Shown here piece by piece: positions 5,541 to 51,332 of a DNA stretch of 64,000 nt (position 1 is its first letter; every line of letters starts with the position of its first letter). This stretch comes from Antarctobacter albus (GTDB lineage Bacteria; Pseudomonadota; Alphaproteobacteria; Rhodobacterales; Rhodobacteraceae). The notes beneath the pieces were generated by a model. The model did no database searches. It saw nothing but the letters and a program-made list of their open reading frames with translations, and had not been told where the DNA came from. The stretch covers positions 310,001 to 374,000 of the forward strand of contig NZ_FMZI01000001.1 of assembly GCF_900101505.1 (NCBI RefSeq), given 5' to 3'. The position numbers and the translations under genes are program-made.

Positions 5541-7961
5541 ATGCGCAGCGAAGCCCAAGCCGTCGTCATCGGAGGCGGCGTGATCGGATGTTCGATCCTT
5601 TACCACCTGACAAAACTCGGATGGCGGGATGTTGTCCTGCTTGAACGCGACGAGTTGACGTCGGGTTCCACCTGGCACGCGGCGGCCAATATCCACGGGC
5701 TGCACGACAGCACCAACATCAGCCGCCTGCAGCACTATACCATGACCCTGTACAAGGACCTGGAGGCGGAAACCGGCCAGAGCTGCGGTGTATTCCAGCC
5801 CGGCAGCCTGTACCTTGCGCAGACGGTCGAGCGGGAGCACCAGCTGCGCCTGCAGGCGGCCAAGGCCAAGCTCTACGGCATGAACTTCTACGAAATTACC
5901 CGGGACGAGGCTGAGCGCCTGCACCCGCTGGTCGATTTCACCGGCATCCGTTGCATCATGTATGAACCCGATGGCGGCAACGTGGACCCGTCCGGTGTGA
6001 CGGCGGCATACGCGGCTGGGGCACGGCAACGGGGGGCGGAAATCCATCGATTCACGCCTGTCATGGCGACGGAACAGCAGCCGGACGGGTCTTGGATCGT
6101 GCGGACGCCCAAGGGCGACATCGCAACCCCCTGGGTGGTGAACGCCGCCGGGCTCTGGGGGCGCGAGGTGGCGGCGCTGGCGGGGTTGAAGCTGCCGCTG
6201 CAACCGACCGAGCACCAGTATTTCGTGACCGAAACCATCGCCGAGATCGACGGGATGGACCGGCGCCTGCCCTCGGTCGCGGACCGGGACGGCGAGTATT
6301 ACCTGCGCCAGGAAGGCAAGGGCCTGCTGATCGGCGCCTATGAACGCGACGTGCGTCTTTGGGCCGAGGACGGCACGCCGCTGGACTTTGCGCATGATCT
6401 CTTCCCGGATGATCTGGAACGCATCGAAGACAACATGATGCGCGCCATCGACCGGGTGCCGGCGGTGGGCATGGCGGGGATCAAGAGGGTCATCAACGGG
6501 CCGATGATCTGGTCGCCGGATTCCAACGTGCTGATGGGGCCGGTGCCGGAACTGAAGGGCTATTTCTGCTGCAATGGCATCATCCCCGGTTTCTCGCAGT
6601 CCGGCGGCATGGGGCTGATGGCGGCGCAATGGATCGTCGAAGGCGAGATGCAGTACGACATGTTCGCCTGGGACATGGCACGCTTTGGCGACTGGGCGGA
6701 TGAGACATTCACCAAGGCGCGGGTCATGAACCAGTACGCGCACCGCTTTGCCATCCACTTCCCCGGAGAGGAACGCGATGCCGGGCGTCCGGTGCGTGTA
6801 CGTCCGGTCTACGAGATGCAAAAGGCGATGGGGGCCAGGTTCGGGCTCAACTACGGCTGGGAACATCCCGCATACTTCGACGCCGACCAGCCCGACACGC
6901 CCGGCTTCACCCGGCAGGGATGGTGGGAAAGCGTGGGTCGCGAGGCGCGGATGCTGCGTGACACCGGCGGCATCATCGATATCTCGAACTTTGCCAAGTA
7001 CCGCGTCAGCGGTGCGGGCGCCGAGGACTGGCTGAACGCGCTGTTTGCCAACCGGATGCCGCGCAGGGTGGGGCGCTCCTGCCTGACGCCGCTGATCGGC
7101 AAGCGCGGCGGGATTGCCGGGGATTTCACCGTCACCCGCCTGGGCGAAGAGGAATTCTGGGTGATCGGCTCGGGTATGGCCGAGCGTTATCACCAGCGTT
7201 TCTTCGCGGATGTGCCCTTGCCCGAGGGGACGACTTGCACGTCGATGACCAAGGCCATGTGCGGCTTCAACGTGGCCGGGCCGCGTTCGCGCGAGATGCT
7301 GGGGCGGTTGACCAACGCCTCGCTCGCCACCGAGGACTGGCCCTTCATGGCCTCGCAATGGATCGAGCTGGCCGGTGTGCGGGTGCTGGCGCTGCGGGTC
7401 TCCTTTACCGGTGATCTTGGCTGGGAACTCCATTGTGCCGAGGACGACCAGGCGCAGCTCTATGAGGCACTTCTGAAGGAAGGCGAAAACCTGGGGATCG
7501 GCCCGGTCGGCAGCCGTGCGCTGATGAGCCTCAGGATCGAAAAGGGCTATGGCTCGTGGGGCCGCGAGTATTCGCCCGAGTATTGGCCGCAGGAAGTGGG
7601 GCTGGCGCGGCTGTGCAAGCTGGACAAAGCGTTCCTGAACAAGCAGGCGCTGGTGGAGGTGATCGACAAGCCGGCGCGCGAGGAACTGGTGATCCTTGCG
7701 CTGGACGAGGAGGCGGTAACGGCCTCCAACGCCGATGCCACGGGCGGAGAGCCAATCTTTCGCGACGGGCAGGGCATCGGGCGCGTGACCTCGGGCGGCT
7801 ATGGCTACTCGGTGGGGCGCAGCCTGGCGCTTGGCTACGTCAAGGCGGGCACGGCGGCGCCGGGTGACAGGGTCGAGGTCATGGTGCTGGGCCGCCCGCA
7901 CGGGGCGGAAATCCTGGCAGAGCCGCCGTTCGACCCTTCCGGAGAGCGCCTGCGCGCCTGA
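5541..7961 (+). CDS. FAD-dependent oxidoreductase / aminomethyltransferase fusion (paralog)
   Basis: 806 residues. It has the same architecture as its divergent neighbour: FAD-binding VVIGGGVIGCSILYHLTKLGW near residue 8, LTSGSTWHAA near residue 38, a middle FAO_M segment and a C-terminal GcvT fold ending at about residue 800. Near-identical N-terminal motifs show that the two are paralogs, while their middle regions differ clearly, which suggests different amine substrates. Expected reaction: oxidative N-demethylation with transfer of the methylene group to tetrahydrofolate. The gene stops 2 bases before the stop codon of the convergent gene at 7964, so the two transcripts must abut or overlap. 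Confidence 0.85.
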   Translation: MRSEAQAVVIGGGVIGCSILYHLTKLGWRDVVLLERDELTSGSTWHAAANIHGLHDSTNISRLQHYTMTLYKDLEAETGQSCGVFQPGSLYLAQTVEREHQLRLQAAKAKLYGMNFYEITRDEAERLHPLVDFTGIRCIMYEPDGGNVDPSGVTAAYAAGARQRGAEIHRFTPVMATEQQPDGSWIVRTPKGDIATPWVVNAAGLWGREVAALAGLKLPLQPTEHQYFVTETIAEIDGMDRRLPSVADRDGEYYLRQEGKGLLIGAYERDVRLWAEDGTPLDFAHDLFPDDLERIEDNMMRAIDRVPAVGMAGIKRVINGPMIWSPDSNVLMGPVPELKGYFCCNGIIPGFSQSGGMGLMAAQWIVEGEMQYDMFAWDMARFGDWADETFTKARVMNQYAHRFAIHFPGEERDAGRPVRVRPVYEMQKAMGARFGLNYGWEHPAYFDADQPDTPGFTRQGWWESVGREARMLRDTGGIIDISNFAKYRVSGAGAEDWLNALFANRMPRRVGRSCLTPLIGKRGGIAGDFTVTRLGEEEFWVIGSGMAERYHQRFFADVPLPEGTTCTSMTKAMCGFNVAGPRSREMLGRLTNASLATEDWPFMASQWIELAGVRVLALRVSFTGDLGWELHCAEDDQAQLYEALLKEGENLGIGPVGSRALMSLRIEKGYGSWGREYSPEYWPQEVGLARLCKLDKAFLNKQALVEVIDKPAREELVILALDEEAVTASNADATGGEPIFRDGQGIGRVTSGGYGYSVGRSLALGYVKAGTAAPGDRVEVMVLGRPHGAEILAEPPFDPSGERLRA

Positions 7962-48307: not shown

Positions 48308-48721
48308 GGCGCGTTTCTCCTGCCGGTTCGGGGCTCATGGATCGCAGGCGCGGGGCTGACGGTCAAGCGCGTCAGGAAAAGCCTTGTTTTGTATCAGTTT
48401 GGTTGTGCTTTGTGACCGTCCTGCAACCTATCAGCGTAACGCCTGGCACAAAGCACCCACTGGAACTCGCTTGATTCGGGGATGATTCGGAGGTTTGCCG
48501 GTTTGCAAAGTGCCGTTGCACTGCAAAGTCCGAAATTATCCACAGGAAATTTGTTCCTGGGGATAACTCGTATTGTCTCGCGATCCGAAACGCCTGCGCG
48601 AATCGCATCTGTGGATAAACTTTTCTTTAAACAACCTTAACAAGAATTAACTTTTTTGCAAACTATTTTTGCGTGCAGATTTCAAGGGCATAGCTGCTCA
48701 ACCTGAAAAAGGAGCGATCCC
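48308..48721. other. Gene-free AT-rich stretch with DnaA boxes, GANTC sites and phased TTAA motifs (origin-like or cell-cycle control region)
   Basis: 414 bases between divergent xth and the repeat-protein gene. Two consensus DnaA boxes TTATCCACA face each other (48536-48544 on +, 48610-48618 on -), with a one-mismatch box TTATCCCCA on - (48558-48566). GANTC sites (CcrM methylation) lie at 48473, 48484 and 48600. An AT-rich tract (48616-48672) carries TTAA at 48627, 48637 and 48647, exactly 10 bases apart. TGCAAAGT repeats at 48504 and 48522. The 3' end holds the repeat gene's RBS AAAAAGGAG. The combination matches alphaproteobacterial origins or cell-cycle promoters; which one is undecided. 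Confidence 0.5.
48536..48618. promoter_or_regulatory. Cluster of three DnaA-box-like sites
   Basis: TTATCCACA at 48536-48544 (+), TTATCCCCA at 48558-48566 (-, one mismatch) and TTATCCACA at 48610-48618 (-). The first and third equal the strong consensus box. Confidence 0.65.
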
Positions 48722-49321
48722 ATGACTGCCCTCATCAAGCTGCACACCCCTAAAGAAACCGTTTCCAAATCGGAAACGAGCGCCTTTGCCGGCGACGCTG
48801 TCGAGGCGTTCACCTCGTGGTCGGGCCCGGCCGATGGCGACCTGTTCGCGGGTGCCTCTGTCGAAGCCTACACATCCTGGTCCGGTCCGGCGACCGGTAC
48901 GCGCGAATCCGGCGATGCAGTCGAAGCTTTTACCTCCTGGTCCGGTCCGGCCGCGGGTGACATGGACAACGGCGGCCATGTCGAGGCCTTCACCAGCTGG
49001 TCCGGCCCGGCGCGTGGCAGCCGCGACGCAGGCGACAACGTCGAAGCCTTCACCTCCTGGTCCAGTCCGGCGGCGGGCGACATCGAAAGCGGCGACAACG
49101 TGCAGGCCTTCACCAGCTGGTCCGGTCCCGCAGCCGGCGACCGCGACGCAGGCGATAACGTCGAAGCCTTCACCTCCTGGTCCGGTCCGGCGGCGGGCGA
49201 CATCGAAAGCGGCGACAACGTTCAGGCCTTCACCAGCTGGTCCGGTCCCGCAGCCGGCGACCGCGAGGCAGGCGACAGCGTCGAGGCCTTCACCTCCTGG
49301 TCCGGTCCGGCCCGCGCCTGA
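48722..49321 (+). CDS. Nine-copy 20-residue repeat protein (VEAFTSWSGPAAGD repeats)
   Basis: 199 residues. A short leader (residues 1-26, MTALIKLHTPKETVSKSETS then AFAGDA) precedes nine copies of a strict 20-residue unit beginning V27, V47 and so on to V187, each with a central Trp (33, 53 ... 193). Consensus: V-E/Q-A-F/Y-T-S-W-S-G-P-A-x-G-D-x-x-x-G-D-x. The last five copies alternate E/Q and RDA/IES, giving a 40-residue higher-order repeat. No Cys, no signal peptide, no membrane span. Strong RBS AAAAAGGAGCG. It resembles either a multi-core modified-peptide precursor or a regular solenoid; no function can be assigned. The helical-protein gene starts 62 bases later on the same strand. Confidence 0.85.
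   Translation: MTALIKLHTPKETVSKSETSAFAGDAVEAFTSWSGPADGDLFAGASVEAYTSWSGPATGTRESGDAVEAFTSWSGPAAGDMDNGGHVEAFTSWSGPARGSRDAGDNVEAFTSWSSPAAGDIESGDNVQAFTSWSGPAAGDRDAGDNVEAFTSWSGPAAGDIESGDNVQAFTSWSGPAAGDREAGDSVEAFTSWSGPARA
48800..49318 (+). repeat. Tandem 60-bp coding repeat
   Basis: Nine in-frame 60-bp units (the last cut to 39 bases). The last units are nearly identical at DNA level in a 120-bp pattern, which suggests recent duplication; earlier units differ mostly in the x positions. Confidence 0.9.
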
Positions 49322-49383: not shown

Positions 49384-50442
49384 ATGAATAATGTCGTCCA
49401 ACTGACCGTCCCGACCCGGATAGCCCCCCTGGAAGCGCGGATCACCGCGCTTCTGGGAGCCTTCGCCGATCACCGCCGCCACGGCGACGACGTGTTCTGG
49501 CTGAAGGAAAACGCGGAACTGCTGAACATCCTCGAATGCACCGGCCAGGCCGTCGCCCCAGAGGCACTGGCGCGCCATGCCGGGTTCTATGCCCAGGCCG
49601 TGCACCGGCTGGAATTCTTTCCGCAGTATTACCGTTTCATCCTTTCGCTGGCGCTGGATCTCGAAGATCTCGGGATGCCAGGGCACGAAGCGCAGAAGAT
49701 GGTGGATTTCGCCGCCCGAGAAGGGCTGGCAGAGGCCGAGCTTTCGGACCTGCAGCGCGCCGAGGCGCGGCGCCTGATGACACGGCGCGGCGTCGATCCG
49801 ATCCGCGATCCCGGCTTGAACGACCGGCTGCGCGCCTTCTGTTCGCGTACAAAGACCTTTGCGCTGCCCAACAAGAAGGCCGCCTACGAACTGACGCACA
49901 TCGTTTACTACCTTTCCGAATATGGCCGGCGTGATCCCGACCTGCCCGAAGAGGCCATCCAGAGCCTGCATTTCGCCGGTCTGACCGCCTTTTTGGACCA
50001 GAACGCCGACCTGCTGGCGGAAATCTGCATTGCCCTGCGTCATGCGGGTCAGATGCCGCCCGCTGTCTGGACCGCCTGGCTGGAACAAGAGACGGGGGCC
50101 TATGGTGTCGTCGCGGATGCCCATGCCTCGATCAATGACGACTATCACGAATACCTCGTGTGCAACTGGCACCAGGCCGTCACCGGCGCGCCAGTGTTCC
50201 GCAAGCCGGTCCGCGACGAACGCCTGCGGTTCGAACGTGGCGCCCGCGCCCAGACCGTGCTGCGTGAGCTGAGCCAGGCGATCTACGGGCTGGACCACCG
50301 GTCGGGTGACTGGGACAGGATGCGCCCACGGATGGAGCCGTCCTTGTCGCCCCAGGCGCGTGATCTGCTCAGTGTCGCCTCGCAGTCCAGCGAGTTGTTC
50401 GATGCCTATTTCGAGGGCTTTGCCCGGGCGGGCCGCGCATGA
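49384..50442 (+). CDS. All-helical protein of unknown function, partner of the repeat protein
   Basis: 352 residues, predicted almost entirely helical, no signal peptide or membrane span. Notable segments: FPQYYRFILSLALDLEDLG (79-97), KKAAYELTHIVYYLSEYGRR (164-183), and NDDYHEYLVCNWHQA (251-265). The ELTHxVYYLSEYGRR block loosely recalls helical-toroid proteins of unknown function in bacterial biosynthetic clusters, but this is memory of a pattern, not a match. RBS GAGGAGAG lies before the ATG. It follows the repeat gene by 62 bases and overlaps the DMT transporter by 4 bases (ATGA). Enzyme, scaffold or peptide-binding role are all open. Confidence 0.65.
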   Translation: MNNVVQLTVPTRIAPLEARITALLGAFADHRRHGDDVFWLKENAELLNILECTGQAVAPEALARHAGFYAQAVHRLEFFPQYYRFILSLALDLEDLGMPGHEAQKMVDFAAREGLAEAELSDLQRAEARRLMTRRGVDPIRDPGLNDRLRAFCSRTKTFALPNKKAAYELTHIVYYLSEYGRRDPDLPEEAIQSLHFAGLTAFLDQNADLLAEICIALRHAGQMPPAVWTAWLEQETGAYGVVADAHASINDDYHEYLVCNWHQAVTGAPVFRKPVRDERLRFERGARAQTVLRELSQAIYGLDHRSGDWDRMRPRMEPSLSPQARDLLSVASQSSELFDAYFEGFARAGRA

Positions 50443-51332
50443 CCCGGCTGGCGCTTTCCGGGGCGACGCTGGGTGCCGCGCTCATCCTTGTCTACACCGG
50501 CGTGATGGCCGCCGCGGACGGGATCACCAAGTTCATCGCGGGGGGATATGCCGCACCGCAGTTGTTCGTCCTGTCCTCGGCTCTGGTCCTGCTGTTCTCC
50601 CTGGCGGGGGCGCGGGCCGACGCAAAGGGCCCCGGCCTGCGGGTCCGGTCGAAAAAGGCTATGACGATCCGCGCCGTGCTGACAGTGATCGCATCGCTGG
50701 CCTTCTTCCAGGCCTTTCGCCTGCTGCCGTTCGCGGATGTGTTCCTGTTCATCGGGTTGATCCCGCTGATCGCCGCCGCCCTGTCCGGCCCGGTACTGGG
50801 CGAGACGCCGCGTCCCGCGGCCTGGGCGGCGCTGGCGCTGGGTGTCGGCGGCATCCTCTTCCTGATGCCGGGCGGCCTGTCCGGTGCGCAGGCCGGACAT
50901 GCCTGGGCCTTGTTGGCCGCAGTTTCCGGCTGTGGCTCGATGTTGGCCGCCCGGGCCATTGCCAAGGTGGAACGCGCGCCTCTGGCACAGGTCTTTTGGC
51001 CCAACGCGGCACTGATGGTCGTCATGGCACTGGCGCTGCCCTTCGTCTGGAAACCGATGAGCCTGACGGACCTGGGGTGGGTCGGTGCCTATGCCGCCGC
51101 CCTGTTTGCCGCCCGCTACATTGTTGCCGAGGCGCTGCGCCTGCTGCCGGCCTATGTCGCAACGCCGCTGATGAACCTGCAATTCGTCTGGATGGTCGTG
51201 ATCGGGTTCCTGGTCTTTGGCGAGGTGCCGACGCTGGGCACCTGGGCGGGCGTGATGCTGGTGGTCGGATCGGGTTTCTGGCTGGTGCTTGAGGAACACC
51301 TGTCGCGGCCCCGCGTCATCCCGGCCGAATGA
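50439..51332 (+). CDS. DMT-superfamily transporter (two EamA domains)
   Basis: 297 residues, ten membrane helices in two EamA repeats (first LGAALILVYTGVMAAADGI onward; second from about AGHAWALLAAVSGCGSMLA). The ending LVVGSGFWLVLEEHL and the FRLLPFADVFLFIGLIPLIAA block are typical. Family members export or exchange small metabolites (amino acids, SAM-like compounds, nucleotide sugars). Translation is coupled to the helical-protein gene, which hints that it moves a product or substrate of that system; no direct evidence for the cargo. Confidence 0.87.
   Translation: MTRLALSGATLGAALILVYTGVMAAADGITKFIAGGYAAPQLFVLSSALVLLFSLAGARADAKGPGLRVRSKKAMTIRAVLTVIASLAFFQAFRLLPFADVFLFIGLIPLIAAALSGPVLGETPRPAAWAALALGVGGILFLMPGGLSGAQAGHAWALLAAVSGCGSMLAARAIAKVERAPLAQVFWPNAALMVVMALALPFVWKPMSLTDLGWVGAYAAALFAARYIVAEALRLLPAYVATPLMNLQFVWMVVIGFLVFGEVPTLGTWAGVMLVVGSGFWLVLEEHLSRPRVIPAE

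Follow-up and report, generated by a model that had tools for sequence, protein, structure and literature searches.

A repeated-core precursor gene paired with a DUF6902 gene in Rhodobacteraceae suggests a RiPP-like peptide cassette

We analysed a 64,000-nucleotide stretch of Antarctobacter albus DNA (positions 310,001 to 374,000 of contig NZ_FMZI01000001.1; hereafter the window), and in it a gene at 48722..49321 on the + strand which encodes a leader followed by nine core units, together with the two genes directly downstream, encoding a DUF6902 protein and an EamA-type permease. The pairing of this multi-core precursor with the DUF6902 protein is well supported. Our favoured reading, held with a little more than even confidence, is that the three genes form a cassette like those for ribosomally synthesised and post-translationally modified peptides (RiPPs), in which DUF6902 would modify each core, most probably by epimerisation, before the product is cut and exported or else acts uncut. 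Carried by bacteria of the Roseobacter group, the cassette has the look of a peptide factory of a kind not yet described.

The precursor is a protein of 199 residues comprising a 26-residue leader (MTALIKLHTPKETVSKSETSAFAGDA; 48722..48799, + strand, by translation), eight complete units of 20 residues and a ninth of 13 residues (48800..49318, + strand; nine units of 60 bp, the final one of 39 bp). Each unit displays the core AFTSWSGP with a conserved Gly six residues ahead of the Phe, the only variants being SWSSP for SWSGP in unit 5 and YTSWS in unit 2. Trp recurs at positions 33, 53, 73, 93, 113, 133, 153, 173 and 193 and Cys is absent. The string TSWS occurs nine times, against three for the best four-residue string (4-mer) in 200 shuffles, and the repeats are therefore not the product of chance. 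Tandem Repeats Finder reports 7.5 copies of a 60-bp period (score 417) and 3.6 copies of a 120-bp period (score 595), the longer period being the stronger and spanning most of the array. The original prediction, made from the letters of the DNA, had described this architecture (a 26-residue leader, nine 20-residue Trp units, no Cys, and a 60-bp repeat with a 120-bp higher-order pattern), and translation and repeat analysis confirm it save for the shortened last unit; neither the signal peptide nor the membrane span that it reported as absent was seen by eye, no dedicated predictor having been run.

The precursor gene is single-copy in the window's own genome. It is preceded by a Shine-Dalgarno-like AAAAAGGAG (48706..48714, + strand, read directly from the sequence) and, about 85 bp ahead of its start, by the element TTAACAAGAATTAA (48637..48650, + strand). 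Of 63 homologous upstream regions, 15 contain this element exactly (one record is counted twice among them), all 15 with Trp-type cores, and its conservation is confined to part of the Trp-core homologues. Other homologues have another common stretch, resembling GTGCAAGCGT by eye, which lies closer to the precursor start. The precursor has no match in PADLOC and no clear match in PHROGs (best E 0.0056).

We surveyed the pairing in 198 genomes of the family, including that of the window. DUF6902 is encoded in 55 of them and a protein like the repeat protein in 35, and all 35 fall among the 55. The upstream open reading frames (ORFs) were read, partly by eye, in the window and in the surroundings of 54 other DUF6902 loci. 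A repeat ORF lies upstream of DUF6902 at 53 of the 55 loci, its start being lost at a contig end in L092, L102 and L119; the two loci that have none are L129, where the contig breaks off, and L128, in which DUF6902 itself is diverged. In 48 of the 53 upstream ORFs a 4-mer is repeated beyond the level of 200 shuffles (47 sound cases, since L096 reflects a masked run), and the others hold 2 to 4 copies. Core copy number ranges from 2 to 20 across the precursors, with just two units in L120, L125 and L127, and 36 of the 51 precursor ORFs having an ATG begin with a leader of type M-x-A-x-x-K. A contig scan with the window's repeat protein yielded 15 loci, in records titled Mameliella, Maliponia, Pelagimonas, Cognatishimia, Tropicibacter, Thetidibacter, Antarctobacter and others. 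Those genes that are unmasked and not truncated hold 5 to 17 units, and the next gene is DUF6902 in all 13 loci in which it is visible (L005 and L007 stop at a contig edge before it, L014 begins mid-repeat and L015 is partly masked). No plasmid-borne copy of DUF6902 or of the repeat protein was found.

The units follow the consensus G-[DE]-[AG]-[VT]-x-[MAL]-F-x-[ST]-[GW]-[SA]-x-P at a period of 19–22 residues in nearly all spacings. When every protein is scored a single time, by the residue most frequent among its units, Gly occurs in 53, Phe in 50 and Pro in 47 of 53 precursors, and 28 of 52 chains stop exactly at residue five of the core. The core is nearly uniform within a gene and differs between genera. 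The core types seen are FTSWS, FVSWS, FISWS, FPSWS, FTNWC, FTSGS, FSSGS, FASGS, FPSGS, FTSGA, FSSGA, FTSGL, FSSGL, FTCGL, FTCGA, FCSAS, FLSAS, FSSAS, FITSC, FSTSC, FTTSC, FTTSM, FTSCA, FTSSS, FSSGM, YIAGL and MMCCS. Two core types are mixed in one chain in L107 (FSSGS and FSTSC), L114, L115 and L116, and such precursors could give rise to two products. At L084 some units of the precursor upstream of DUF6902 contain not one core but two, eight residues apart (MFTSGLVQMFTSGLAP).

Conservation of the core is apparent at the codon level. When units were chosen by their likeness to the core (52 precursors, L115 being left out), core codons were identical in 4287 comparisons, silently changed in 2691 and replaced in 117, whereas the corresponding figures for the spacer were 2291, 1303 and 4848; this choice admits units differing from the core at no more than one position and is biased towards core conservation. 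Ignoring positions +1 to +4 in choosing the units (53 precursors, 363 units) gave 2931 identical, 2171 silent and 438 replacement comparisons in the core, the last figure being inflated by units that are one residue off in a dozen proteins and by a wrong chain in L125, and 2262, 1261 and 4757 in the spacer. The pairs of units are not independent in either comparison. Silent changes far outnumber replacements in the core and the reverse holds in the spacer, and we therefore conclude that the copies are old enough for silent divergence while the core has nevertheless been held by selection.

These results strongly support the proposal of the original prediction that the gene encodes a multi-core precursor and is the partner of the gene at 49384. 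The homologues of variable copy number that it suggested looking for exist, every one of the 35 genomes with the repeat protein also has DUF6902, distant homologues of the enzyme also stand behind leader-core ORFs (see below), and the contrary case, homologues lacking the neighbour with randomly drifting repeats, was sought among the 198 genomes and not found. Its contrast between a constant core and variable spacers is borne out within genes, although the core itself changes between genera. The very regular solenoid that it had offered as an alternative is weakened by the two-unit homologues. New beyond that sequence-only reading are the change of core between genera, the membership of the neighbouring protein in a family with a reported peptide epimerase, and the permease as a usual part of the cassette.

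The gene at 49384..50442 (+ strand) encodes a protein of 352 residues, a presumed peptide-modifying enzyme, that matches PF21843 (DUF6902) at E 2e-160 and 533.9 bits (cut-off 27) and also matches DUF6895, of the same Pfam superfamily, above the Pfam cut-off (E 1.8e-21, 77.2 bits; cut-off 23.8). A lasso-peptide epimerase has been reported in DUF6895, according to the title of Shi et al. (ACS Catal. 2026, doi 10.1021/acscatal.5c08590) as cited in PMC13352647. The conserved residues of the window protein are Y168, T171, H172, D209, E213, Y254 and H255, and it carries the signature that we define here as common to the two Pfam families (Y-x-x-T-H, D-L-x-x-E and Y-H). All 12 DUF6895 sequences compared retain H172, D209, E213, Y254 and H255, as do 18 of 19 DUF6902 rows, the single row without the signature residues being L128, which also has no precursor. 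The diverged DUF6902 of L128 (5922–6996) sits at the same location on the chromosome, but its conserved His, Asp and Glu are gone and no repeat ORF stands upstream; this is a natural loss-of-function pair. The structure model of the window's DUF6902 protein is helical except for two short strands (predicted local distance difference test, pLDDT, 74). No chain in the PDB matches it by sequence, and a Foldseek search of the model against the PDB returned nothing at E ≤ 0.001, a result that excludes no fold. PADLOC gave no clear match (E 0.01) and PHROGs none.

A tentative view of how cores relate to enzymes comes from a quick enzyme tree of 46 rows, which excludes four rows lacking an adjacent xth; it implies 5 core changes when cores are scored as Trp or not and 32 when scored by 4-mer, with 19 of 43 forks left open and no shuffle control for these counts. 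Different cores accompany close enzymes, for instance FSSGS in L083 and FSSGL in L088, and also in L079, L080 and L082; close DUF6902 enzymes can thus have different cores.

The wider DUF6895 family shows a comparable gene order in several places. DUF6895 was searched for in 398 genomes of the phylum and matched 13 times, 11 of the matches being above the cut-off and 8 of the 13 inside the window's family; those in G274 and G285 fell below the cut-off and resembled chance frames, and one further match came from a class-wide search with DUF6902. At all four loci inspected outside the family (L146, L147, L148 and L152) there are, by eye, small upstream ORFs that hold a single aromatic core or two, for example GPWFVL or DWTFVSPNYVYKG. 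Seven plasmid records match the DUF6895 protein of L146, and four of these (from Kitasatospora, two Streptomyces and Pseudalkalibacillus) have a small ORF directly upstream, again by eye, with a leader of type L-x-x-S-G-[LI]-[IVL]-[DN] followed by a short C-terminal part. Altogether, a small leader-core ORF was recognised by eye upstream of DUF6895 at 8 of the 11 loci outside the family. A profile of the four plasmid leaders, trimmed by hand and run on 5241 ORFs of 30 other loci, placed the Pseudomonadota precursors of L148 (6.3e-7, the sole significant match), L152 (1.3) and L146 (3.2) as its top three and left L147 unmatched. At L146 two tandem precursor-like ORFs (7197–7448 and 7653–7850) stand ahead of one DUF6895, near a papain-like protease gene of C70/C39 type and, by eye, methyltransferase-like and MFS-like genes. 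Two of the plasmid loci (L153 and L155, Kitasatospora and Streptomyces) have DUF6895 and leader-core ORFs near type I polyketide synthases and an IPT/TIG-domain protein.

The third gene of the cassette, at 50439..51332 (+ strand), encodes an EamA/DMT-type permease (PF00892, 6.2e-14; no match in PADLOC), the presumed product exporter, and overlaps DUF6902 by 4 bp (ATGA). It is the next gene after DUF6902 in 39 of 53 loci (L076–L128), with the ATGA overlap in 25 of the 39. The cassette is flanked by genes which by eye resemble housekeeping genes, namely xth (50 of 55 loci), a gene for a HesB-like protein (47) and dgt (47). For comparison, about 12 kb around the HesB gene was inspected in 20 genomes hand-picked from the 143 that lack DUF6902. 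Both xth and HesB are present at 18 of these 20 sites, no more than 1.3 kb apart in 15, and none of the 20 has EamA there. None has the repeat gene either, as judged by a unit pattern that detects 51 of 54 DUF6902 loci; its two matches in L173 both lie within an alanyl-tRNA-synthetase-like ORF. The absence of precursor and EamA at these sites lacking DUF6902 indicates that precursor and DUF6902 have come or gone as a pair at a single location on the chromosome, in most cases along with EamA. Elsewhere in the window, at 731–1131, are tandem repeats of 27 bp (nine residues), which we take to resemble calcium-binding repeats of the RTX type.

We propose the following scheme. The product of 48722–49321 would serve as a precursor in which a leader is followed by nine AFTSWSGP cores set between acidic, variable spacers; DUF6902 would recognise it and modify each core, the likeliest reaction being an L-to-D epimerisation at or beside the conserved Phe; and the modified protein would be cut by a host protease to short peptides for export by the overlapping EamA permease, or would alternatively act uncut. 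The arrangement found at 53 of 55 loci, a leader-core precursor gene beside that of a putative modifying enzyme, is the one that defines RiPP loci, and repeated cores that are better conserved than their spacers are the mark of a multi-core precursor. That DUF6902 acts on the cores is our inference. Epimerisation appears the likeliest chemistry because of the family membership and conserved residues of DUF6902, and cleavage and export are suggested by the protein ends that coincide with the core and by the EamA gene. Because the cores are near-uniform in each strain and differ from genus to genus, each lineage would produce a peptide peculiar to it, a pattern that would fit a signal, an antimicrobial or some comparable bioactive compound.

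Several observations weigh against this scheme. No core residue is strictly invariant (position 0 is Phe in 50 precursors, Tyr in two and Met in one; n = 53), and L102, L107, L114, L115 and L116 contain units that deviate at positions +1 to +4. EamA is missing from 14 of the 53 loci, in one of which (L124) the sequence is cut by the contig end. Three of the 11 outside DUF6895 loci (L156, L157 and L158) have no leader-core ORF recognisable by eye, the DUF6902 leader has no visible likeness to the leaders of DUF6895 loci, and the link between DUF6902 and an epimerase derives from the title of one paper. The conserved neighbours, inspected by eye without a Pfam run, include no evident dedicated protease or leader-binding domain. 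Finally, an AlphaFold2 (AF2) model of the repeats places one beta strand in each 20-residue unit, so that the protein may fold and remain uncut. This last point, together with the regular 19–22-residue period and the want of a protease evident by eye at the locus, would suit a beta-solenoid or multivalent scaffold that works uncut, with DUF6902 as its modifier or binding partner. We consider this rather improbable, given that the repeat model is of low confidence (pLDDT 59), that some homologues have just two units, that the spacers drift freely and the cores do not, and that 28 of 52 proteins terminate at the core.

The nature of the DUF6902 activity allows for further alternatives. The enzyme might modify the cores by another reaction, such as lipidation, dehydration or side-chain chemistry, given a fold class to which prenyltransferases, terpene cyclases and lanthipeptide cyclases may also belong; we regard this as unlikely. 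A cyclisation of ASG-like cores of the 4-methylideneimidazol-5-one (MIO) type was dropped since many cores have no Gly (SWS, TSC and SAS). In Rap/Phr systems, peptide signalling is mediated by a peptide receptor, and DUF6902 might likewise be no enzyme but the receptor of a short core peptide. A helical protein, a genus-specific short peptide and adjacent genes would all be in keeping with such a role, but two His and two acidic residues are kept even in far DUF6895 relatives, which fits catalysis better than it would the recognition of differing peptides, inspection of the precursor by eye showed no signal peptide, and the homologous family includes, by the title cited above, a reported enzyme. 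We therefore think a receptor very improbable.

If the precursor is indeed modified by DUF6902, an unnoticed peptide pathway is present in more than a quarter of the sampled family genomes (55/198), in what the named relatives suggest are mostly marine bacteria, and involves an enzyme which acts many times per chain on a core that varies at several positions between lineages. It would also give DUF6902 a function and free DUF6895-type enzymes from an exclusive link with lasso peptides. More tentatively, and with less than even confidence, the cassette may be a peptide-communication or competition system, maintained at a single chromosomal location in Rhodobacteraceae, in which DUF6902 inverts one residue in each of the 2 to 20 copies of a lineage's own core; many D-residue peptides would thus come from a single chain, the locus having neither lasso nor radical-SAM nor lanthipeptide machinery. 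The cassette would then constitute a new multi-core RiPP class, with DUF6895/6902 as a widespread superfamily of stand-alone peptide epimerases reaching into Actinomycetota and Bacillota. A cassette of two or three genes is directly testable in E. coli. The literature searched, which mostly did not extend to subscription journals, contains no description of the cassette and no mention of DUF6902 or of any of four core strings, and in it DUF6895 appears solely as the cited title (PMC13352647).

Among known systems, the DUF6895 lasso-peptide epimerase, known here by its title, comes from the same Pfam superfamily by the Pfam cut-off and several relatives have a small precursor beside the enzyme gene, but the present locus has no lasso machinery, 2 to 20 repeated cores and a leader unlike those of DUF6895 loci. 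A lasso pathway was rejected on a search for the lasso B-type protease (PF13471) in 40 of the 55 cassette genomes: it occurs in one, on another contig, and in none of the other 39, the window's genome among them. MslH epimerises the C-terminal Trp of the lasso peptide MS-271 and has two His/Asp pairs in a calcineurin-like fold with Ca(II) (PMC10406935). It is likewise an epimerase acting on a precursor, and its two pairs are similar in number to the conserved His (two) and acidic residues (two) of DUF6902; the DUF6902 model, in contrast, is mostly helical and not of calcineurin-like alpha/beta fold, with no PDB sequence match, and an MslH-type epimerase was rejected on this basis. DUF6902 may have the overall helical toroid arrangement of the alpha/alpha-toroid proteins (protein prenyltransferase beta subunit, class II terpene cyclases and nisin cyclase); no sequence relation was found, and the chemistry need not be common. 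Microviridins are products of graspetide chemistry by ATP-grasp ligases, whereas DUF6902 is of another enzyme family. What the multi-core microviridins have in common with the present precursors is the placing of several core peptides on one precursor, there served by one processing enzyme (PMC5934393).
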